From Dialister hominis (GTDB taxonomy: Bacteria > Bacillota > Negativicutes > Veillonellales > Dialisteraceae): a stretch of 64,000 nt of DNA. The notes under the pieces were generated by a model. It made no database searches, had not been told where the DNA came from, and worked only from the letters and a program-made list of their open reading frames with translations. Every line of letters starts with the position of its first letter. Position 1 is the stretch's first letter. Shown piece by piece: positions 4,446 through 42,685 of this stretch. Position numbers and translations under genes: made by a program. Where the stretch lies: the NCBI RefSeq assembly GCF_007164725.1, contig NZ_AP019697.1, positions 2,318,501 to 2,382,500 of the forward strand, given 5' to 3'.

Positions 4446-6311
4446 TCAGAGAGCGGCGAGGGCCTCTTTGGCGGGCGCATAGCCCAGGGCTGCGGCTTTC
4501 GTGAGGAGCTGGCGGGCGAGGGGGAGATTTCTTTCTCCGCCAAGTCCCTTTTCAAGGAGCAGGGCTTCGTCGGTCATGCCCGGGGCGGCGATGATGTCGC
4601 CTCTTTCCGCAGATTTCCTGTACCATTTCAATGCAAGGGCATAATCCCTTTCTACACCTGTCCCGTCCTCATAGCATTTCCCGAGGAGGTACTGGCTCGT
4701 GATGTCGCCGTCTTCCGCGCCTTTCTTGAACCAGGAGGCAGTTTCCTTGTCATTCTTCGGGACGCCGCGGCCTTCCTGATAGAGGAGTCCGATGTAGCGG
4801 GCGGCTTTCATGTGGCCTAGCTTGTCAGCTTCCTTGAAATAGGCGAGTGCTTTGGCTGCGTCTTCTTCTGTCTTTCCATTATAGAAACGGAGGCCCTGGC
4901 TTAGGACTTTGCCGGCAATTTCATGCTTCTCTCCCTGGGAAAGGCCGCTTTCGTTGAAGGAAACGGGAGTGTTGTCCAGTGTCTGGAGATAGAGCCAGTC
5001 ACGGATGCCCGGGATATTGTAGGCAAAGGTCCATGTGTACATGTGGTTGCCGTTCTGGAAGACGGTGTAATTGATGGCAGCGTCCTGCTTTTCGATCTGG
5101 CGCACGAGGTCGGCCATGGACTTGGAGTCAGCGTGGCTGTTCCAGAGGGGAGCAGTGGCTACTTTCGTGCCCAGCTTTTCCCAGCGGGAGACAGCGTCGT
5201 TCATGCCCGGATACGCTTTCGTGTCGCCTTCGCTGACGAGGATCCAGAGGTTCTTGTCCTTCAGCGCTTCCATTTCCTGCGTGTTCCACTGGCAGGCGAC
5301 AAGGAACTGTGCGGCAAAGAGGTCCGGATACTTATCGCTGATGGCGATGTTTGCCATGCCGCCCTGGGACTGGCCGGTGCCGTAGATGCGGTTCGTGTCG
5401 ACGGCGTACGTGTTCGTGACATCATGGATGAGATCGGTGACGAGGGTGAGGCCCTTTGTCCAAACGTTTTCATCCGTCGTCATCATGCCGAGGGAGTCGA
5501 CGAGTTCCTGTGGATACTGGACGGCAAGGACGATGGAAGGATGCTTCTTCTGCTCTTCCTCCGATGCCCAGACGGTCGCGCCGTTGCCCTGGACGAGGGT
5601 GATTTTCGGATCGCTGATATTCGTGCTGGCATCCGGGATGAAGACGAGAAGCGGGTAGCTCTTCGATTTGTCATAGCCCTTCGGAAGGTAGAGGTAGTAA
5701 GGGATCGTTGCCTTCAGGGCCGGATCAGTGTAAGTGTGCTTGATGAAACCGGAAATGTCCGGCTCAAGGACGGAAGTGTCCGTATAGACCGTCTTTCCAG
5801 CAGGGATGGTCTCCCCCCCCTTGGCCGTGCGGATCGGGCCGGTCTGCGTGACCTTCACGGAGAGGTCAGGCATGACGCGGTCGCTCTTCATGGACGCATC
5901 ACCGTTCTTGGGGCCTTCCTTTCCTTTGGAGCCGCCCTGCTTAAAGGGCATATCGGACTGCGGATTCGTGTTCTTGATATTGATGATGACATACCTGCCG
6001 GCTTCCGTGGGTTCGCCCGGGGATGCCGTGGTCGCTGCCCAGACGGAGGCGATTTCCTTTCCTTCCACGGAGAAATCTTCCGCAGAGAGGGAAGTTGTCA
6101 GGATTTTCTCAGGATATTCGAGAGCGATTTGGGAGACCTGCTCGCCCCAGCCATAGTTGCGGGCGATGGAAGTGACCGAAGAAACGAGAGGGGCTGCTGT
6201 TTCAGCTGCCGGCGCAGTACTTGCCGGAGCAGGCGCTGCTGCCAGACTTGCGCCGCCTCCCAGAAGACAGAGCGCACATGCCAGTGCGCAGATCATTTTT
6301 TTCTGTTTCAT
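4446..6311 (-). CDS. Secreted alpha/beta-hydrolase (esterase/depolymerase-like) with C-terminal Sel1 repeats
   Basis: 621 residues. A Sec signal peptide (MKQKKMICALACALCLLGGG, Ala-rich cleavage region) sends it to the periplasm or outside. The central domain (about residues 195-460) is an alpha/beta-hydrolase: TIPYYLYLPKGYDKSKSYPL, nucleophile elbow GTGQSQGG with Ser at about 315, and NGNHMYTW supplying a likely His near 435. The C-terminal part (about 480-610) holds Sel1-type repeats such as ARYIGLLYQEGRGVPKNDKE and YLLGKCYEDGTGVERDYALA, which mediate protein contacts. The substrate is unknown; PHB-depolymerase/feruloyl-esterase-like folds share the first part. A run of eight G (coding strand; 5813-5820) encodes residues 164-166 and could slip. 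Divergent from the cyclic-di-GMP gene. Confidence 0.82.
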   Translation of the reverse strand: MKQKKMICALACALCLLGGGASLAAAPAPASTAPAAETAAPLVSSVTSIARNYGWGEQVSQIALEYPEKILTTSLSAEDFSVEGKEIASVWAATTASPGEPTEAGRYVIINIKNTNPQSDMPFKQGGSKGKEGPKNGDASMKSDRVMPDLSVKVTQTGPIRTAKGGETIPAGKTVYTDTSVLEPDISGFIKHTYTDPALKATIPYYLYLPKGYDKSKSYPLLVFIPDASTNISDPKITLVQGNGATVWASEEEQKKHPSIVLAVQYPQELVDSLGMMTTDENVWTKGLTLVTDLIHDVTNTYAVDTNRIYGTGQSQGGMANIAISDKYPDLFAAQFLVACQWNTQEMEALKDKNLWILVSEGDTKAYPGMNDAVSRWEKLGTKVATAPLWNSHADSKSMADLVRQIEKQDAAINYTVFQNGNHMYTWTFAYNIPGIRDWLYLQTLDNTPVSFNESGLSQGEKHEIAGKVLSQGLRFYNGKTEEDAAKALAYFKEADKLGHMKAARYIGLLYQEGRGVPKNDKETASWFKKGAEDGDITSQYLLGKCYEDGTGVERDYALALKWYRKSAERGDIIAAPGMTDEALLLEKGLGGERNLPLARQLLTKAAALGYAPAKEALAAL

Positions 6312-28573: not shown

Positions 28574-29458
28574 TCATGCAGCCATTGGAGCTGCGTTGAA
28601 TACTTCCATTGGGGCTAAAAGATGTAATTTGCGCTGAATGCGTTTGTTGTTGTAGAAGTAGATGTAGCCGTTGATCATGCTTACCACTGCTTTGCGGCTG
28701 GTGAATTTACGTGTGTAGTAACGTTCGCGCTTCAGCATTCCCCAGAACCCTTCCATCAGACCGTTGTCTGCACAGCAGCCTACGCGGGACATGCTGTGAA
28801 CCAGTCCTGCTTTTTCAACGATCTTATGGAATCCGTTGCTTGTATACTGGAATCCACGGTCAGTATGAATCATTGGATGTGCTCCTGGATTCTCTTTAAG
28901 TGCCTTTTCCATTGTCTCAAAAGCCAGTGCAGTATTGTTTCTGTCGCCGATGACATAAGAGACAATCCGACGGTCATGGCCATCAATAATGGCGCTTAAA
29001 TATAACTTATGCAAAACTCCATCAGCCGTTGTGTATTTGAATTCGGTGACATCCGTCATCCATCTTGCATTGGATACGCCTGCATCGAAATCACGGTTCA
29101 GCAGGTTTTCAAAAATGTACTTTGGATCCTTTGCGTTACGAGTGCAGCCATCAGTCTTGTATTTGATCACGGACTTAATATTAAGTATCCGCCTGACACG
29201 AAGAACCAGACTGTCACTTACCATAAGGTGGCTCTCGCTATACTTCTTGATCCAATCGTTCATCCGGCGGTATCCCATATCCGGATATTCCTGATGGATT
29301 TTCACGACCTCCTGTGCGACCTTTTCTCTCAGCAGTTCACGGCCGCTCTTAATATGATTCAGCCAGCCGTAATAAGCTGCCCTGGAGACCTTTGAGAGTC
29401 GGCAGAGACTTTCTATGGAGATGTTGGTTTCTTCATGGACTTCTTTTATGGCTTTAAA
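28574..29458 (-). CDS. IS3-family transposase OrfB (copy 2)
   Basis: Protein identical to copy 1 as far as the DDE region shows (WMTDVTEFKY, IHTDRGFQYTS, MEGFWGMLKRERYY). Read as the -1 frameshift continuation of OrfA from the heptamer at 29452-29458. Intact. Confidence 0.92.
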   Translation of the reverse strand, partial: FKAIKEVHEETNISIESLCRLSKVSRAAYYGWLNHIKSGRELLREKVAQEVVKIHQEYPDMGYRRMNDWIKKYSESHLMVSDSLVLRVRRILNIKSVIKYKTDGCTRNAKDPKYIFENLLNRDFDAGVSNARWMTDVTEFKYTTADGVLHKLYLSAIIDGHDRRIVSYVIGDRNNTALAFETMEKALKENPGAHPMIHTDRGFQYTSNGFHKIVEKAGLVHSMSRVGCCADNGLMEGFWGMLKRERYYTRKFTSRKAVVSMINGYIYFYNNKRIQRKLHLLAPMEVFNAAPMAA

Positions 29459-30177
29459 ATCTCTGAGAAGGTGAGTAAGGCTGAATCCTTCGAGGAACGC
29501 AACCTTTCCTCTATCTCCATCTTTTTTTTTAGCAGGGCAATCTCTGCTATAAGATCCTTCTTCTCTTCAAGAAGTCTGGCATTCTCCTGACGCAGCCGTT
29601 CTTCTTCGGTCCGGGGCGTTTGGAGCCTGATTGGCTTTCCTCTGTAATCCTCAAGACCAACTTCTCCCATCTCCTTGAACTTTTTTACCCATGTGTAGAG
29701 TGTTTGGTAGGACATGTTGTACTTCTTGGCTATCTTGTTGTAATCGCATCCACTGGCGATGCACTCCTGAACGATTCTGACTCGCTCTTCCTTGACCGAT
29801 TGCTGGCGTTTGCCCATAAGATCTCCTCCTTCAGAAACGAGGTCTGTCAACTTATGCTCATTATACGCCTCAATCCATGTTTTAAGGGAGAGAGTGCCGG
29901 AAATTCTGTATTTGGCACAGACGGAAAGCATGGAAACGCCGCCTTTAAGATATTCCTTTACGGCCTGGATCTTCATCTGATTGGAGTAGTAAGACAAATG
30001 CTGCCTGGGCCGCAATCCCTTAAAGCCCTCCTCTTTATACCGGAGAACCCATTTTCTGAATGTTATGCGGCTCATATGAAGATTTTCAGCTGCCTGGGTA
30101 ATCGTAACACCCTGATAGAGATATGAAGCAATCTGGTCTAACATTTCCTCCGGGGACGCTTTGGTTTTACATGGCAT
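29446..30177 (-). CDS. IS3-family transposase OrfA (copy 2)
   Basis: 243 residues, same as copy 1: helix-turn-helix units and a C-terminal coiled coil. Overlaps the OrfB frame by 13 bases around the slippery heptamer. Intact. Confidence 0.92.
   Translation of the reverse strand: MPCKTKASPEEMLDQIASYLYQGVTITQAAENLHMSRITFRKWVLRYKEEGFKGLRPRQHLSYYSNQMKIQAVKEYLKGGVSMLSVCAKYRISGTLSLKTWIEAYNEHKLTDLVSEGGDLMGKRQQSVKEERVRIVQECIASGCDYNKIAKKYNMSYQTLYTWVKKFKEMGEVGLEDYRGKPIRLQTPRTEEERLRQENARLLEEKKDLIAEIALLKKKMEIEERLRSSKDSALLTFSEILKP
29452..29458 (-). other. Slippery heptamer T_TTA_AAG (copy 2)
   Basis: Same -1 frameshift site as at 1885-1891. Confidence 0.8.
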
Positions 30178-32288: not shown

Positions 32289-33446
32289 AAGTTGAACACC
32301 CGGCGAACCTTTATGCAGTAAGTGCTGCAAGCATTTCTTCCCTAAAGCACTCCTCGGGTGTCTTATAGCCGAGTATTTTTCTTGGCAGGGTGTTGGCCCA
32401 GCACTCTACTCTGGAAATGTGTTCCACTGGGTAATCCTGGATTTTCTTCCCTTTGGGAAGAAATCGACGGAATAAGCCGTTGTGATTCTCATTCGTACCT
32501 TTGTCGCTGGAGCAGTACGGATGCGCATAATAGATCCGTGTGTGACTTAGTTTCTCTAGCTCCGACAGGCTAGAAAACTCACTGCCATTGTCTGTCGTAA
32601 TGCTGAGGAACACTTGGCTGAAACAGCCGCGGAACATTCCATCCTTCAATTTTCTGAAGGCTGCTATTACAGAGGCACTTTCCTTGTTGGGCAGTTTTCT
32701 GATGAGGGAACAGCGTGTCTTGCGCTCAACCAGAGTCAGCAGTACTTCGTCCTTTGAGCGAGATCCCAGTACAAGGTCACACTCCCAATGCCCGAAATCC
32801 TGACGCTCATCCACAGAAGGATCGCGCTCATCTATACTGCGGCCGAACTTCTTCTTACGCTCACGAACCCGCTTCCTGGCGTTTTTTCGCTTGACGCGCA
32901 AGGGCAGGTCAATACTCTTGATTTTTCCTAGGAGCCCCAGCGTGACATAGTTGTACAGGGTTTTCGTACAGACCATCTCGCCACGTTGAAATTCTCCCGT
33001 AACCAGTGCCCTGCCAAAGCAGGCATCGAGCGACCAGTGATGTTCCTGAAGTCTCTTCTGCACATAGTCGAGGAATGCTTCCTTTGCTATGGCGTCGCAT
33101 TTGCGACCACAGTTTTCGCGATGCGCCTCATAGGTGCTTTGCCCGTCTGCTGCGCGATAGCGTTCCACCTTGCCGTTATAGCAAAGAACCTTGCCACGCT
33201 TCACCTCGTTGCGTACCGTATTGACACAGCACCCAATCTCACGGGCTATGCTCCGATACGATTGCTTGTCGCGGAGACGCGTTTGGATAATGACTCGTTC
33301 CTCAAAAGTTAAATGAGCCCCTTTTTTGCGTAACGTATCCGTGGTAAAATGATTTTGATCCATAGCGATTCTCCTTTGTGGTTGTGTTTTTTGTGCAACT
33401 ACATTTTACCACAAGGGTTCGCTATGGATTTTTAAGTGTTCAACTT
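32289..33446 (-). mobile_element. IS30-family insertion sequence
   Basis: Imperfect terminal inverted repeats: both ends start AAGTTGAACAC read inwards and share GCGAACC further in. The flanks carry a possible 3-bp duplication (aat). One intact transposase. It lies about 190 bases upstream of the trimeric autotransporter and may separate that gene from an older promoter. Confidence 0.8.
32311..33363 (-). CDS. IS30-family transposase
   Basis: 350 residues. N-terminal helix-turn-helix (HLTFEERVIIQTRLRDKQSY then SIAREIGCCVNTVRNEVKRG, about 17-55) and a C-terminal rve/DDE core: HWECDLVLGS (first Asp), TTDNGSEFSS (second Asp), KGTNENHNGLFRRFLPKG (Glu). The last motif is the IS30 hallmark. Intact; start ATG after AAAGGAGAA. 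Confidence 0.95.
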   Translation of the reverse strand: MDQNHFTTDTLRKKGAHLTFEERVIIQTRLRDKQSYRSIAREIGCCVNTVRNEVKRGKVLCYNGKVERYRAADGQSTYEAHRENCGRKCDAIAKEAFLDYVQKRLQEHHWSLDACFGRALVTGEFQRGEMVCTKTLYNYVTLGLLGKIKSIDLPLRVKRKNARKRVRERKKKFGRSIDERDPSVDERQDFGHWECDLVLGSRSKDEVLLTLVERKTRCSLIRKLPNKESASVIAAFRKLKDGMFRGCFSQVFLSITTDNGSEFSSLSELEKLSHTRIYYAHPYCSSDKGTNENHNGLFRRFLPKGKKIQDYPVEHISRVECWANTLPRKILGYKTPEECFREEMLAALTA

Positions 33447-33631
33447 AATTATACAATCCGCCTTTTTTAATCAATTATAGCTTTATAAAAAAATAAATAA
33501 TCTAGAGGAATGCTTTGTTTAGGAAGTGAAATGATGTTAAAATAAGAAAAAATGCACCGTATAAAGTTTAAATCTATTAGAGGCGCTGAGTATTATTTTA
33601 TGCTATTTTTAATATAAAGGAGGCGATTAAA

Positions 33632-36600
33632 TTGAATAGAATTTACAAGGTTATATTCAATCGCGCAAAAGGGCAGCACCAGGTTGTTTCAGAATTAGCA
33701 AAAAATGGCGGGAAAACGTCGGGTAATTCTCTATTAAGAACAATTATTAAATCGGGGGGGTACTGACTAGTACCGTATTAACAGCTGTGCTTGTATTTGG
33801 AAGTGCACTTTATGGTAGCGCTGAATCTGTTCAAGACGGTGATATTTTGAAGGCCGGAACTAACATTTCTGTAACTAAAGACGAAACAACAAAGACAATC
33901 ACAATATCCACTGATGGGGTCGCAACCAGTGTAGAAGTGGATGCAGTAAAAAAAGACGTACAAAAGAACCAAACAGCTATTGCTGACAATACGGGCAAAA
34001 TTGCGGATAACAGCACAGAGATCGCTAACAATAAGATTAGAATCAATCAAAATTACAAGGACATCCAGCAAAACAAGACGGATATTGCGGCAAATAAAAA
34101 TGCGATTACAGCCAATACAGGAAAAATCAAAAATAATACGGACGATATTACAGAGCTAAAAAATGTGAATTCTGCTTTGGGCTTGGATCAAACAAAACCG
34201 GGAATAAAGTATTTCCGTGCCAATTCCACTGGAGAGGACGCTGCGGCTGCGGGCGAAGATGCTGTTGCCATTGGTGTCAGGGCAAAAGCGAATGGCAAAG
34301 ATTCTGTGGCTCTGGGCGATGATGCTCGTTCTGCTTCATCTGCTGAAAACAGTATTGCCATTGGCAGGAAAGCTGTCAGTGGCTCCTTTAATGATATGAC
34401 CGGTGATGGCGACAGTTCTAATGTGGTTAAAGACGGAGGCAAAGCAAGCATATCCATCGGTGATGCAGCCAATGCTCGGGGAAACTCTTCGATTGCACTG
34501 GGGGATGGAGCGACGGTCTATAATGATGGGACCAATGATCAGCTCAACGATAACAGCATGGCAATTGGAACTAAGGCTAGTACGGTTGCTTCCAACAATG
34601 CAATTGCGATGGGCAACAATGCTGCTGTGACGCAAAACAGTCATAGTGCTGCAGCGATTGGAGACAGCGCAAAGGCTGAGGCGGAAGGCGCACTGGCTCT
34701 GGGCAAAAGTACGGCTGCTTCTGGAGCTGACAGCATTGCGGTTGGAACAGAGGCAGCAGCCAGTGGAGCAGATGCCCTGGCTATGGGTAAGAATGCGCAA
34801 GCTAGTGGGGCAGATGCCGTTGCTCTTGGAAACGGAGCTGTTGCTGGGGGCAGTGCTTCTGTAGTTTTGGGTAAAGATGCCAGTGCCAATGCCGTCCGTT
34901 CTGTCGTACTTGGTCCAAGTGCAGGCGTGGGTATGGTAGGACACGTATTAGGGACGAAGGGATCCCATGTAGTCATTGGAGACGGTGCTGGCAACAATAT
35001 TGACGGACAACAGAACATTGCAATTGGCTACAAAACGGGAAATGATGTCAAAAGCGACCATAATGTAGCCATTGGTTCTGAAGCTGGGACCAATATTGGG
35101 TCTAGCGGAAACACATCTGAAGGGAAAAATGTTTCCATTGGCTATCATGCTAATAAAAACGATTCTGCTGTATCGCGGATCCAGTCTACGGCTTTAGGCA
35201 GTGAGACGAAAGCTGCTGATGATGCCGTTGCAGTCGGGTATCAGGCACAGGCGAATGGAAATGGATCTACGGCAATCGGGTTTAACGCCCAGGCTGCAGA
35301 TGCGGCCAGTGTAGCTTTAGGTCAGGGCGCCCAGGCTGCAGGCGGTAATGTTGCCATAGGCAATGACTCCGTGGCCAATGCCGCTATGATCAGTGGGACT
35401 GGGTATCTGACAGGACAGGCGGCTCCCAAGACTGCCGTTTCTGTCGGCAATGCATCGGCGCTGCGCCGTATTACCAATGTAGCTGACGGGGCACTGGATC
35501 AGGATGCCGTTACTGTGGCACAGCTCAAAAAATCAATAGACGCTACGGTAGCTCAGGTCAATGCGAATGTTTCTTCTGCAACGGCAAGCGGGGTATATTA
35601 TGATACGGTCACTTCTGGAGATGGAGACAGTATTACCCTTCGTAATAATGACAATAAGGGAACGAAAATCCATAATGTCGCCGCAGGGACACTGGGGACT
35701 GATGCAGCGAATGTAGCTCAGGTCAATAAGATTGTTGATACGGCAAAAACACATTACTACTCTGTAAAATCTACCGATTTGAATAATTATGATAACAATT
35801 TGGCTAAGGGTGAAGACTCTATGGCAGCTGGCGTGAGCGCCAAAGCTTTAGGGGACAGGAGTGTTGCGCTGGGGAATAATACAGGAGCGCAGAGTCTTGG
35901 CAGTATTACAGTGGGAGCCGGTTATGAAGATCCGGCTAACCCGGGAAGCCTGAAACAGACTTTAGCCATCAGCGGTTATCAATATAACACGGCAATCGGG
36001 GCTGGCGCTCAGGCAGCCGGAAATAACTCACTGGCTATAGGGACTCTTGCGACGTCTTCTATAAAAAATGGTGGAAGCAGTGTAGATAAAGCGGTTGCCA
36101 TTGGTTATTCTGCAGGTGTTTCTGATGACAAAGCCATCGCCATCGGCAGTGATGCCAAAAGTAACAGTAAAAGTGCTTCCGCTATGGGAGATACGGCTCA
36201 GGCACTGGCAGAAAACGCGCTGGCTATAGGAACAAACGCACAGGCAGCCGGTGTTTCTTCTGGGGCAATTGGCACCCAGAACCGGGTTACTGGGGCAAAT
36301 ACCTATGTCCTGGGCAGCCAGAACAGCACGGCTGCAACAGGTACAGCTGCTGATGTAAGTGCTTCGAATTCGGGAATCTTTGGGAATGAAAACCGTATGG
36401 AAGGGGACAGCAATCGTATTGTAGGGAATCAAAACGTGCTGAAAATGGAATCCCTGTCCAATAATTCTTCCAACTCGAAAACCTTTGAAAATATTTTTGT
36501 AACGGGTAGCCATAATACGGTTACGGGCGATCCGGATACAAGCACAGCAGGCGATGCAGGCAGCGTATCTGATATTACTGTTACAGGTTCGAAAAATACC

Positions 36601-39600
36601 ATCCAGGCCAAAAACCAGAAAAACAGGAATCTGACGGATATCCAGATCGTGGGGAACCAGAATACCGTTGATGCCACGACTCAAAACGCGGATTTGTCCA
36701 ATACCCAGATTCTGGGGAGCCATGTAACGGCAACCTTGGGGAATTCCGTCTATCTTGGCAGCAATTCGGCTTATGTTGTATCGGGAGCCACTACAAAAGG
36801 AATGGATGTATACGACAGCGACGGGACATATCAGTACGCCGGGGGAACCCCTGCAGGTATTGTAACGGTGGGCTCCGCAGGGAAGGAACGACGCATCCAG
36901 AACGTTGCGGCCGGTCTGGTCAGCGCAAAGAGTACGGATGCTGTGAATGGAAGCCAGCTTTACACCATGACTCGGCCTCTGCGGTTTGCCGGAGATAATT
37001 CGACCATCGGGACTACCTCAGGATCTGATGTCAATGTCCTCCATCGCGGTTCTGACCAGGCTATGTCCCTTTTGGGCGGCGCTGACGGTGATAAGCTGAG
37101 CGATAACAATATCGGTGTCGTTGCCGATGCGGCTAATAATAAAATGACCGTGAAGCTGGCCAATAACATTACTCTTGGCAAAGCGGATCCCAATGGCTCA
37201 GATGGATCTATTTCTGTCCTTGCAGAGAAGGGTGGTGAGGTTCGGATTTACGATGGTTCAGTTATGCTGCGAAATTCCGGCGATTCAGATGCTATTTATC
37301 TCCAGAGCCATATAGCGGGAGCAACGAGCTTGGATGGTTCATCCAAAGCTCGTCTGTATGTCATACAGGGATCAACGGAGAGTCCGCAGGAAGTGGCCCT
37401 CCTGACAGACGGCATGATTTATGGCGGTGATGCGGAGTCTGCCGGACTGGATCCTGCAACCAATAAATCCAATACAGGTAAAGAAATCAAAAAGGTGTTG
37501 AATCAGCAGGTCAATGTCATCGGCGGCATTACGAATACGACAAAATTCACGGCAGAGGACAATCTGGGCGTCGTGTCTGACGGTACAAACAACCTGAAAG
37601 TCCGTCTTGCCAAAGATTTGCAGGGAATCAGCAGTATTTCCAATCAGACGACGACCGGCGGAACTACCACCGGGACGAAGATTACATTGGGGAACACAAC
37701 CAATATCGTCAACGTGGGTGGCGCCAAAATCACCAACGTGGCTGCTGGTGATGTAAACAGTATGTCCACCGATGCAGTGAATGGCAGCCAGTTGTACCAG
37801 ACTAATCAGAATGTAAAAGCAGCTAAGACAGTAGTGAAAGCCGGAAGGAATGTGACCGTGGATTCATCAACCGGCGCTGATGGGCAGTCTGTTTATACGG
37901 TAAATGCTGATCTCAGCTCCGTTGCCAGAGCTATCGGCGGAACTTCTAGTGTAGATATTGCGACCGGTGCGGTTAAAGCCGGGCTGACTGTCAATGGCAA
38001 AACCTATAACAACGTGCAGGATGCTGTGAATGCAGCCAATACGACTGTTTCTTCTAAAGACGGTTCTGTCAAGGTGACACCGACCAATAACACCAATGGT
38101 TCACACAACTATGATGTATCCGTAGACTATAGCAAAGTCGCAGAGAATGCTGCTATTTCCTATAAAGCCAATAACAGTACGGCTCAGACCGTTACCTTGA
38201 AAAAAGGACTGGACTTCACCAACGGCAAGAATACCACCGCTTCAGTCGGGGCTGACGGCGTTGTCAAGTATGATCTGAATGATGATATTAACTTGAACAG
38301 TGTGACAGCAAAAACAATTAATGGCGATACCATCAAAGCCGGCGATACCACCATTACTACAGATGGCATGACCATCACAAACGGTCCGTCCATTACTAAG
38401 ACCGGTATTGACGCAGGCAGTAAGAAGATTACAAATGTGGCAGACGGCGATATATCGCCTACATCAAAGGATGCTATTAACGGCAGTCAGCTGGTATCGT
38501 ATGTAGCTGCCAATAAGACCATTCTGAAAGACGGTAAGAATACCACTGTTACCGGTAACGGCACAAAAGATGATCCCTACAAGGTGAATGTAAATGATAA
38601 TCTGAACCTTGGTGAAAAAGGAACTAATGGTAAAGACGGATCCATCGGCGTCAACGGTACAAACGGCTCTTCTGTAACTATTAACGGTAAGGATGGCTCC
38701 ATCGGTATGGTCGGCGAAGACGGGAAAGATGGCCTTACCATGAAATCTGCGAAGGGTCAGGATGGCGTGGATGGTGCTAATGGTATGACCCGTATTGTTT
38801 ACGAAGATGATGGGCATGTCACCCATGAAGTTGCCACATTAGATGATGGACTGAAGTTTGCTGGAAATACAGGATCTGTGGCCAAAAAACTGAACAGTAC
38901 CATGACCATCAAAGGAAATGGAACGAAAGCGGACACGGAATATGATGCGTCCAACATCAAGACTGTAGTGGATGCACAGGGAGATCTGGTCATCGGATTG
39001 GACAAGAATCTGAAGGCAGATACTGTTACCGTGGGCGGCCAGGGCAAAGACGGCGCTGATGGCATCAATGGGGCTATTGGTGTAAAAGGTGCTGATGGCA
39101 AAGATGGGGTTACCATTTCTTCTATAGGTAAAGACGGAACCAATGGTACCGATGGTCATATTGGCATTAATGGCAAGGATGGTGCTTCTGCTGACATCCA
39201 TGTTGTAAAAGGGGCAAATGGAGTAGACGGCACGGATGGCTATAATGGCACGGATGGTATTGATCGGATCGTCTATGAAGATCACAATGGGAATACCCAG
39301 ACGGTTGCCACTATGAACGACGGAATGAAGTATGGCGGTGACGTAGGGAATGTGATCAATAAAAAGCTCAATGGCCAGGTAAATGTAGTCGGGGGCATTA
39401 CAGATTCTTCTAAACTGTCAACGGAAGACAATATCGGAGTGGTATCTGATGGAAGTGATAACCTGAAAGTGCGGCTTTCAAAAGATTTGAAAGGACTGGA
39501 TTCGGTTACTACGAAGACTGTTACAGCAGACACTGGGAATATCACGACGGTAAATGCCAGCACTGTCAACGTTGGAGACACCACCATAACGACGGGAGGG

Positions 39601-40524
39601 ATGACAATCCAAAATGGTTCCGCAGGTCAGGATGTTACGCTCAATAAAGATGGGTTGAATAATGGTGGAAATAAGATCACCAACGTAGCTCCTGGAGATA
39701 TTTCATCGACCAGTACGGATGCTGTAAATGGAAGCCAGTTGTATGGCACGGAAACCCGGATTAATCGTTTGGGCAACCGAATCAATCATGTTGGCGCTGG
39801 GGCGGCAGCTCTGGCAGGGCTCCATCCTCTGGATTTTGATCCGGATGATAAATGGGATTTTGCAGCCGGGTACGGTAATTATAAAAATGCCAATGCAGTT
39901 GCTATTGGCGCTTATTATCGTCCTAATGAAGATACCATGTTTAGCGTAGGTGGGTCCTTCAGCGGCGGAGAGAATATGGTGAACGTTGGTGTCAGCTGGA
40001 AATTTGGGCAGAAGAGCCATATCTCCCGTTCACGTGTTTCCATGGCTAAAGATATGCTGGCTATGAAAAACCAGATTGAAACGCTGACGAAAAAATTGGC
40101 AGCCTATGAATCGGGTCAGCCTGTGAAATTGGCTCCTATAGCAACCGGAGCTATGACCTTCCCAGATGTACCGGAAAATCATTGGGCTTATGAGTATGTT
40201 AAGAACTTAGCGGAACGAGGTTATCTGAAAGGATATCCGGATGGAGAATTTAAAGGCGATAGAGCGATGACACGTTATGAATACGCAGCCATTATTTACA
40301 GGGCTTTACAAAATGGAGCGCCTTCGGATGGTAACATGACCCGTTCTGTAGATGACTTTGGTCCTGAATTGGTTAAAGTGCAGAATATCGATCGTTTCCG
40401 CGTAGACCGAATTTCCGGTAAAGATAATGATCGGCATAAGGTGGAACGTGTACGGGTAAATGATAAAGATGATAAAGCCCAAAATGTGTACCGTGATGTT
40501 TACGGAAACCATATTCAAAAGTAG
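33632..40524 (+). CDS. Trimeric autotransporter adhesin (YadA/Hia type) with C-terminal SLH domain; start region out of frame through a G7 tract
   Basis: Start TTG at 33632 follows AAAGGAGG and encodes an extended signal peptide (NRIYKVIFNRAKGQHQVVSELAKN...) typical of type V secretion. At the G7 tract (33754-33760) this frame meets TGA at 33764; with one more G it would read on as VLTSTVLTAVLVFGSALYGSAES and join the 2,245-codon frame that is open to 40524, giving about 2,297 residues. Order after the signal: short coiled coil (TDIAANKNAI...), YadA-type head repeats (AVAIG.RAKANGKDSVALGD-like) to about residue 500 and again later, necks with NGSQLY, collagen-like GKDG/NGKDGS repeats near 1650-1850, YadA membrane anchor (INHVGAGAAALAGLHPLDFD ... 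VNVGVSWKFG), then a coiled coil and one SLH domain (FPDVPENHWAYEYVKNLAER). As assembled it is OFF. Confidence 0.9.
33754..33760 (+). repeat. Homopolymeric G7 tract, likely phase-variation switch
   Basis: Seven G between AAA TC and TACTGA inside the signal-peptide region of the adhesin. Eight G (or five) restores the full frame. Slipped-strand changes in such tracts are the classic mode of adhesin phase variation. Confidence 0.75.
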
Positions 40525-40545
40525 GGCACAGTAGATAAGAAGTAT

Positions 40546-40586
40546 AAAAGCGCCAGTTGCTCGAAAGGAGTGACTGACGCTTTTAT
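40546..40586 (+). terminator. Terminator after the adhesin gene
   Basis: AAAAGCGcCAGT / ACTGaCGCTTTT stem, then TATA. The AT-rich 180 bases to the next gene hold nothing else I recognise. Confidence 0.8.
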
Positions 40587-40765
40587 ATTAGTGTTGAATA
40601 TAAAGTTGGGCTTGAAGATGGGTTACCAGTAGAAGTGTATAAGTATATAAAATATAGTTTTTTTATGATAGTGTTGATAGATGATATCTGGGAAAATTTT
40701 AAATTCTGATTGCAGTTTGACTTTTTTATTCATCATCACTTGGTTAATTTAATAGTTGGTGCATA

Positions 40766-41302
40766 TTATAAACCACCAACACGGTTTAGAATATATTGGT
40801 CATTATTTTTGATTAAATTATAGAATTCGGATTTGCTATTTACCCATAGGCCTTCATTTTTTCCATTACCTGCAATCCAAGCCGGAGCTATGGTTTTTAC
40901 TGAATATGATACATCATAATAGTGATTGTCTGTCTTACTGGTATCGTTTGTTGGGCCATTAATTCGATTAATTTTATAATCAAAAATTTGATTTTTAGTG
41001 AATAATCTCTCGGATTTATAATAGTCAAATTCTTGGATTAGTATTTTGTTAACAATTTCTTTTTCTGATAATCCCTCTACGTCTGATATTGCTATGTGAT
41101 TATATTGAACCTTTTCGGATGGTATGGATTCATACGAATAGAATAATAAATATACAACTCCTATTAGTATAATCACTATAGTTTTTGTTTCTATTTTCTT
41201 AGCCTTAATGCATTTATAGATGGTAATAATTATCACAAGAAAAGTGACGATATATAATAAAAACAAAGAATCACTTATAAATATAATCATTTTTAATATC
41301 AC
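40766..41302 (-). CDS. Small membrane protein of unknown function
   Basis: 178 residues. Two N-terminal membrane segments (about 5-28, IIFISDSLFLLYIVTFLVII, and 43-57, IVIILIGVVYLLFYSYES) separated by a basic loop (KCIKAKKIETKT), followed by a soluble domain of about 115 residues with many Tyr, Asn and Lys. The topology suggests an inner-membrane protein with a periplasmic C-terminal domain, or the reverse. Base composition is clearly AT-richer than the flanking chromosome, as for its island neighbours. Its start lies only 15 bases from the IS256 end, so its promoter may have been replaced by the element. Family unknown. Confidence 0.65.
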   Translation of the reverse strand: MILKMIIFISDSLFLLYIVTFLVIIITIYKCIKAKKIETKTIVIILIGVVYLLFYSYESIPSEKVQYNHIAISDVEGLSEKEIVNKILIQEFDYYKSERLFTKNQIFDYKINRINGPTNDTSKTDNHYYDVSYSVKTIAPAWIAGNGKNEGLWVNSKSEFYNLIKNNDQYILNRVGGL

Positions 41303-41317
41303 CTATTTTCGAAGCAC

Positions 41318-42685
41318 GGGTGTGTCAAGAGTTTTGTGTAAATCGATTCAATAAGCAACATCGTATTGCTGCATAAGCTGAGACATCCTGTCGTCCATGA
41401 GCAGCTGGTTCCGGACCATCGCCCAGTTTGCGACGTGACGACCCTTCCATTTTTTATAGAGCTCTTGGATGCGTAGGTAGAAAATCTTGAAGACTGCATC
41501 CTCGTTGGGGAAAGCGCCTTTCTTGGTCACCTTGCGGAAGCTAGAGTTGACACTCTCGATGGCATTGGTCGTGTACATGATCTTGCGCACGGCACTGCCA
41601 TAGTTATAGAGCTGCTCGACGTGTGAGAAATTGTTTTCCCATACGCTGACCGCGCCTGGATAAGCCTGCCAGTCGGTCTTGAACTTCTCGAATTCCTGAC
41701 GGGCCTGCTTGACGTTGATGGCACCATAGATGAGCTTCAGCTGCTTCGTGAATGCACTCCACTGCTTGCGTGGGATGTGGCGGATGGAAATGCGGATGAG
41801 GTGTACGATGCAGCGCTGAACCGTGGCATGCGGGAATACAGCCTTGGCACCTTCCTCCAATCCGCTCACGCCATCCATGGACAGGATGCCAAGATCCTTA
41901 ACGCCGCGAGCCCGCAGCTCGTCGAAGATCTGCATCCAGGCATGCTTGCTCTCCGTCTCGTTGATCCAGAGGCCAAGGACATCCTTGCAGCCGTTGACGT
42001 CATAGGCAAGCATGACATAGACGGCCACCTGCTGGACGCCATACTCCGTGCGCAGCGATACGTAGATGCAGTCGACGAAAGCAAATGGATAGAACGACTG
42101 GAGCGGACGATTCCGCCATGCCTCGACCTCTTCCATGACGCAGCCTGTGATGGTGGAGATCTGTTCATGTGACATCTGGAAGCCGTAGATGTCTTCGACG
42201 GTTGCAGCGATGTCGCGTTGGCTCATGCCACGGGCATACATCGCCAGTACCTTGCCCTCGATGGACGAAACGTCGCGCTGGTGCTTCTTGATGATCTGCG
42301 GTTCAAACGTACTCTGGCGATCCCTAGGGACGCGGATAGGAACCTCGCCCAGAGAGGTCTTGAGCGTCTTGGATGAATAGCCGTTCCGGACATTGTCACC
42401 GTCTTCGGAGCGCTCATGCTTCTTATGGCCGAGATGATTTTCCATCTCACCTTTGAGCATAGACTCAAAAATGGGGCCAAAAATCTGCTTCAGGACGTCC
42501 TGTACGTCTTCCGCGCTCTTGATGTCGTAGTTGTTGAGGATTTGCTGAGCAATCTGCTCGCCTGGGGTAGTTGGTGGAGTTTTACACTTTGCCATTCTGT
42601 TACCGTCCTTATCTTTGTTTACCCCAGTATGGGGCATAAAGTAGATTCATGCAATACCGATTTACACAAACTATTTTACACTCCC
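41318..42685 (-). mobile_element. IS256-family insertion sequence
   Basis: Imperfect inverted repeats: left gggtgtgtcaagagttttgt and, from the right end inward, gggagtgtaaaatagtttgt; both continue gtaaatcg. One intact transposase. The right end abuts a truncated sigma-like gene whose first codons now come from IS sequence. Confidence 0.8.
41348..42595 (-). CDS. IS256-family (mutator-type) transposase
   Basis: 415 residues from the ATG at 42595 (MAKCKTPPTT); an in-frame start at 42637 would add 14. Seen: NGYSSKTLKTSLGEVPIRVP and RDRQSTFEPQIIKKHQRDVS (N-terminal Transposase_mut region), DDE residues in FVDCIYVSLR, SMDGVSGLEEGAKAVFP, and TTNAIESVNSSFRKVTKKG. Intact. Confidence 0.95.
   Translation of the reverse strand: MAKCKTPPTTPGEQIAQQILNNYDIKSAEDVQDVLKQIFGPIFESMLKGEMENHLGHKKHERSEDGDNVRNGYSSKTLKTSLGEVPIRVPRDRQSTFEPQIIKKHQRDVSSIEGKVLAMYARGMSQRDIAATVEDIYGFQMSHEQISTITGCVMEEVEAWRNRPLQSFYPFAFVDCIYVSLRTEYGVQQVAVYVMLAYDVNGCKDVLGLWINETESKHAWMQIFDELRARGVKDLGILSMDGVSGLEEGAKAVFPHATVQRCIVHLIRISIRHIPRKQWSAFTKQLKLIYGAINVKQARQEFEKFKTDWQAYPGAVSVWENNFSHVEQLYNYGSAVRKIMYTTNAIESVNSSFRKVTKKGAFPNEDAVFKIFYLRIQELYKKWKGRHVANWAMVRNQLLMDDRMSQLMQQYDVAY

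Follow-up and report, generated by a model that had tools for sequence, protein, structure and literature searches.

A poly-G tract that splits the signal peptide of a giant trimeric adhesin in Dialister hominis: a probable contingency locus

In Dialister hominis, the gene of a giant trimeric autotransporter adhesin is divided between two reading frames at a run of seven G. Is this copy a phase-variable gene caught in its OFF state, a young pseudogene, or an intact gene whose homopolymer was miscounted in the assembly? We propose that the adhesin is a poly-G contingency locus working through a mechanism like that of Moraxella Mid/Hag, a reading that the sequences of the locus and of its homologues make probable.

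Anatomy of the leader, the G tract and the adhesin body

On the forward strand of the 64-kb window (the whole stretch of DNA that was analysed), direct reading places a Shine-Dalgarno sequence, AGGAGG, at 33618..33623, 8 nt 5' of a TTG start, and the homologue alignment reveals that it is kept in homologues. From TTG 33632, the leader ORF (33632..33766, forward strand) encodes the 44-aa peptide LNRIYKVIFNRAKGQHQVVSELAKNGGKTSGNSLLRTIIKSGGY, an extended signal peptide (ESPR) according to its translation and its match to PF13018 (E 3.4e-14); how good a signal peptide it is was assessed by visual inspection and from this ESPR match. The leader ends at TGA 33764-33766, right after the G7 tract (33754..33760, forward strand), the proposed slipped-strand switch, where homologues carry G8 or G9. 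The adhesin body, recognized by translation, Pfam and purifying selection, occupies another frame of the same strand (33751..40524): its frame opens after a TAA just 5' of 33751 and runs to the stop at 40524, that is, 2,257 codons stop to stop or 2,245 codons counted from GTG 33787, and the chance of a 2,245-codon open frame in random sequence is ~1e-47. The sequence-only reading, which had described a TTG start with a strong ribosome site, an extended signal peptide whose frame ends at a TGA just past seven G, and a body of 2,245 codons in a different frame, was thus accurate on the layout of the locus.

By Pfam, the body comprises 11 YadA_head stretches, 6 YadA_stalk stretches, collagen repeats, a YadA_anchor and a C-terminal SLH domain. 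The outer-membrane YadA_anchor domain (39838..40005, forward strand; residues 2030-2085 of the body) scored 47.8 bits against a PF03895 cut-off of 22.7 at the protein level and 55.5 bits in the genome search. The SLH domain follows the anchor (40156..40287, forward strand; body residues 2136-2179), an architecture reported from Negativicutes (PMC7549365, PMC5491611). With its YadA_anchor beta-barrel and its head and stalk passenger repeats, the product has the composition of a trimeric (type Vc) autotransporter. The gene does begin with an export signal, the ESPR leader, the frame of which differs from that of the body in the Dialister copy; judging from these frames, the copy as sequenced should give no exported protein.

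The G tract is positioned exactly at the frame junction between the two halves of one signal peptide, and it is the sole frame lesion of the 6.9-kb gene. The run itself is ordinary (GGGGGGG was observed 3 times in the window versus 8.0 expected from dinucleotide shuffles), and we therefore discarded its rarity as an argument, the case resting on position and homologues. That the position of the tract is not a matter of chance follows from its place at the junction, from its being the sole G run of at least 6 in the 6,893-bp adhesin gene (the remaining runs are A6 or A7), and from the G8 or G9 found there in homologues. We also considered, and rejected, a separate start from which the body could be translated in its own frame close to the junction: among the starts at 33787, 33847, 33937, 34165, 34177 and 34183, none has a Shine-Dalgarno-like sequence upstream, and none restores an n-region together with a hydrophobic core. 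Hence, a start with an export signal in the long frame, which had been named beforehand as telling against the switch, was sought near the junction and not found there.

Tract length and frame state among natural alleles

Homologues were searched for in 40 relatives and in 380 genomes of the class (by pattern and profile), and a collection of 84,980 species genomes served to name them. The subfamily is small, being found in Dialister, Megasphaera, an allied Veillonellaceae isolate and Acidaminococcus, and its alleles carry a repeat tract whose length sets the reading frame. With G7 at the junction, the Dialister hominis allele is off. With G8, the alleles of Megasphaera sp. NM10 and of Acidaminococcus intestini DSM 21505 are on, their leaders being in frame with the body. 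G9 is found out of frame, hence off, in A. massiliensis Marseille-P2828, and on in Veillonellaceae bacterium Marseille-P2974, in which the leader phase and the flanking codons differ and the leader is longer. An allele from the genus of A. intestini (Acidaminococcus G061) is in frame without any tract (GGGAAGGCA), and A. massiliensis harbors a second, diverged copy, likewise without the tract, that is frameshifted elsewhere in its signal peptide.

Dialister and NM10 share 93% DNA identity over the 1-kb 5' query, and around the tract they are identical over 76 bases upstream and 171 bases downstream, where the sole difference is the tract length. Natural copies with near-identical flanks thus differ in tract length between species (G7 in Dialister versus G8 in NM10). 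The G8 of NM10 reads straight into a predicted signal peptide, and this natural in-frame allele bears out the earlier surmise that eight G would join leader and body. As G8 alleles are on and a G9 allele is off, tract length varies around the in-frame value, as a slipped-strand switch predicts. Moreover, the tract is kept at a synonymous divergence of up to 0.84 and the flanks of Marseille-P2974 differ; therefore, it is the G run itself that has been retained. Scans of IMG/VR returned only copies of assemblies already compared, identical over the aligned regions, and no independent strain.

The idea that ESPR genes carry poly-G as a rule was considered and rejected. An ESPR-like motif followed by G7 matched 7 of the 380 class genomes (6 of these 7 with ESPR genes; the reversed control pattern matched 1), a later case with a variant motif (G067) being added, and most ESPR genes of related bacteria are devoid of a poly-G tract, several of them being broken by ordinary lesions. 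No poly-G beside an ESPR was matched in the genomes searched from Veillonella's family. Two unrelated ESPR genes deserve mention in their own right. In one, from the same bacterial family (G011; L193:573, contig 1), a G8 stands right after the ESPR and out of frame, an arrangement that could possibly represent an independent poly-G switch. In the other, from Acidaminococcus (G067; L228; C35:10050-12000), a G7 lies in a signal peptide of variant motif that is in frame as far as assembled; a frameshift was suspected and dismissed, the later break being a stretch of the assembly in which the bases are unknown.

Switching, miscounting or loss

In the proposed mechanism, the G tract would act from its place within the coding sequence, past the conserved n-region of the ESPR and ahead of the hydrophobic core, where slipped-strand mispairing in replication would add or remove G and so shift the body into the frame of the leader or away from it. 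In the ON state, with the body in frame, the adhesin would be made, exported and displayed; in the OFF state, translation would stop after a leader of ~44 to 62 residues, and nothing would be exported. The sequenced Dialister genome would represent the OFF state. G7 is at the short end of the range for fast slippage. As to the initial claim of a phase-variable switch in OFF state, the variation of tract and frame is supported across species; slippage as its cause and reversibility, as well as adhesive function and the benefit of switching, are what we infer from the sequences.

The single-contig assembly may rest on long reads, and homopolymer miscounts are a known long-read assembly error; in a consensus error of this kind, the true tract would be in frame and its G homopolymer miscounted. 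We hold this to be unlikely, given that other G8 or C8 tracts in the same assembly sit in intact long frames, that the 6.9-kb gene has no other frame lesion, and that in a separate genome, that of A. massiliensis, this tract has independently put the gene out of frame. The intact long frames with G8 or C8 are the 621-aa Sel1 gene, a 568-codon frame at genome position 2089377 and a 308-codon glycosyltransferase at 1700222. In the Sel1-repeat gene (4446-6311 of the window), the tract is a G8 at 5813-5820 on the minus strand.

A pattern search in this genome (a single contig of 2.41 Mb, with one ESPR and two YadA anchors) gave ~19 tracts of G7 or longer. Two prophage copies (genome 428345, L190:4346, and 944714, L191:8715) agree at every position over 4.6 kb apart from one tract, G7 in one copy and G8 in the other, located between the gene of a Mu gp48-like tail protein and that of a tail fibre, and the fibre region is possibly a tail-fibre variation system. 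This region differs downstream of the tract, beside a tyrosine recombinase gene. Two pairs of galU-like and family-2 glycosyltransferase genes (L189:5334-7485 and L189:13516-15626; genome 1692079 and 1700222) likely form a second phase-variable surface system: the glycosyltransferase paralogues have G8 in frame versus G10 broken, with 59 further differences over the 2.1 kb aligned, and the glycosyltransferase of Dialister G005 has G8. Either poly-G tracts are mutable in the Dialister lineage or they were misassembled at several sites, and the latter is disfavored because several G8 or C8 tracts sit in intact frames of the same assembly. A G9 was also noted at genome 939059 (L015, L191:3060), with a small open frame beside the prophage starting a few codons further on.

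A recent one-way loss, by which a frameshift in the slippery tract would have left a young pseudogene with no switching back, appears improbable. ESPR genes broken without any poly-G tract do occur in these genera, the second A. massiliensis copy is frameshifted, and the second YadA-anchor gene of the Dialister genome (L188:4015-9106) is a wreck, a pseudogene with several frame breaks and an inserted transposase that illustrates decay in this genome. In the present gene, by contrast, the sole lesion sits in the one tract that is variable in homologues too, the body is open over its whole length, and the tract is kept across diverged alleles, on and off alike. A G7 upstream of the second YadA-anchor gene was examined as a possible ESPR tract and discarded, as it lies beside the transposase insertion in the decayed gene.

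Selection on the body bears on the same alternative. In codon alignments, pairwise dN/dS of the bodies ranged from 0.08 to 0.24, with 0.085 between the off A. massiliensis allele and the tract-free allele; the bodies are under purifying selection, off alleles included, and the gene has been kept. On the short Dialister branch, parsimony counted 13 changes that are synonymous and 15 that are not (omega ~0.38; departure from neutrality, P 0.01), whereas the other branches, with omega 0.05 to 0.07, are under tighter constraint, a contrast that should not be pressed because a divergent segment of NM10 (~codons 1600-2000), probably recombinant, inflates the NM10 change count. The off Dialister gene is no old pseudogene; it may have been lost recently, and the raised omega of the Dialister branch, a point in favor of loss, would also fit a gene that has stood in the off state for a while.

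Finally, the out-of-frame gene could provide a constant low amount of full-length adhesin if ribosomes were programmed to shift frame, or the polymerase slipped, at the G tract, as both can do on such runs. This is highly improbable, and frameshifting is not a conserved requirement, since there are homologues in frame with G8 or G9 and the tract-free allele needs no frameshift.

Known switches and mobility of the locus

The poly-G contingency locus proposed here has its nearest described counterparts in Moraxella and Veillonella. In Moraxella catarrhalis, Mid/Hag is a trimeric autotransporter whose frame is switched by a G(n) tract close to the ORF's 5' end (PMC7302503). The Dialister adhesin resembles it as a trimeric autotransporter adhesin with poly-G in the 5' coding sequence and in-frame and out-of-frame states. 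It departs from it in belonging to another phylum, in a tract that parts the n-region of an ESPR signal peptide from its hydrophobic core, in a body that has collagen repeats and, past the anchor, an SLH domain, and in a switch deduced from sequence. UspA1, with a poly-G tract acting on expression level, and UspA2, with AGAT repeats upstream of the ORF acting transcriptionally (PMC7302503), also exemplify repeat-tract phase variation of trimeric adhesins; unlike theirs, the Dialister tract is in the coding sequence and would act on/off.

Within the class Negativicutes, Veillonella parvula has trimeric autotransporters, VtaA-I (PMC7549365) and Vpar_0041/0100/1664 (PMC5491611), which share with the Dialister adhesin the YadA head, stalk and anchor and, in some, an SLH domain after the anchor. 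The searched passages of both papers make no mention of poly-G switching, and ESPR genes are frequent in the genus Veillonella. In the open-access literature, our searches turned up no adhesin of Negativicutes described as switched by poly-G. Hence, as far as we found, this would be a random on/off switch of a known kind that was not previously reported in this bacterial group.

Repeat-tract switching has been described mostly from Gram-negative pathogens, and a review noted that genomes with multiple phase-variable loci seem restricted to pathogens, maybe through database bias (PMC11868660). If our reading is true, a poly-G-switched giant adhesin would be common to gut commensal Negativicutes, and commensals would hedge their attachment too. 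Annotation from a single genome, whether as pseudogene or as intact, would misread such genes. Metagenome reads that already exist allow the tract length to be counted directly.

The locus also appears to have moved between lineages. A segment common with A. intestini, which belongs to a different order from Dialister, spans 33515..41313 at 92 to 94% DNA identity in two aligned pieces (blastn), and the match with NM10 spans 33553-40588. An IS30-like transposase gene lies just upstream (32311..33363, minus strand; HTH_38 and a weak rve by Pfam) and a Mutator-family (IS256-type) transposase gene downstream (41348..42637, minus strand; PF00872, E 3.5e-106); in NM10, an integrase-like reading frame was seen by eye just upstream of the adhesin. 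Horizontal transfer is the natural reading, and 33515..41313 is likely the unit of such transfer. On the broader proposal our judgment is evenly balanced: the adhesin gene may have moved among gut Dialister, Megasphaera and Acidaminococcus, taking promoter and poly-G switch along, as part of a wider poly-G phase-variable repertoire of Negativicutes that would include glycosyltransferases and prophage tail genes. Elsewhere in the window, a two-gene transposase element (HTH_Tnp_1 and rve) is present in two copies, at 1007-2610 and 28574-30177, with equal ORF sizes and spacing.
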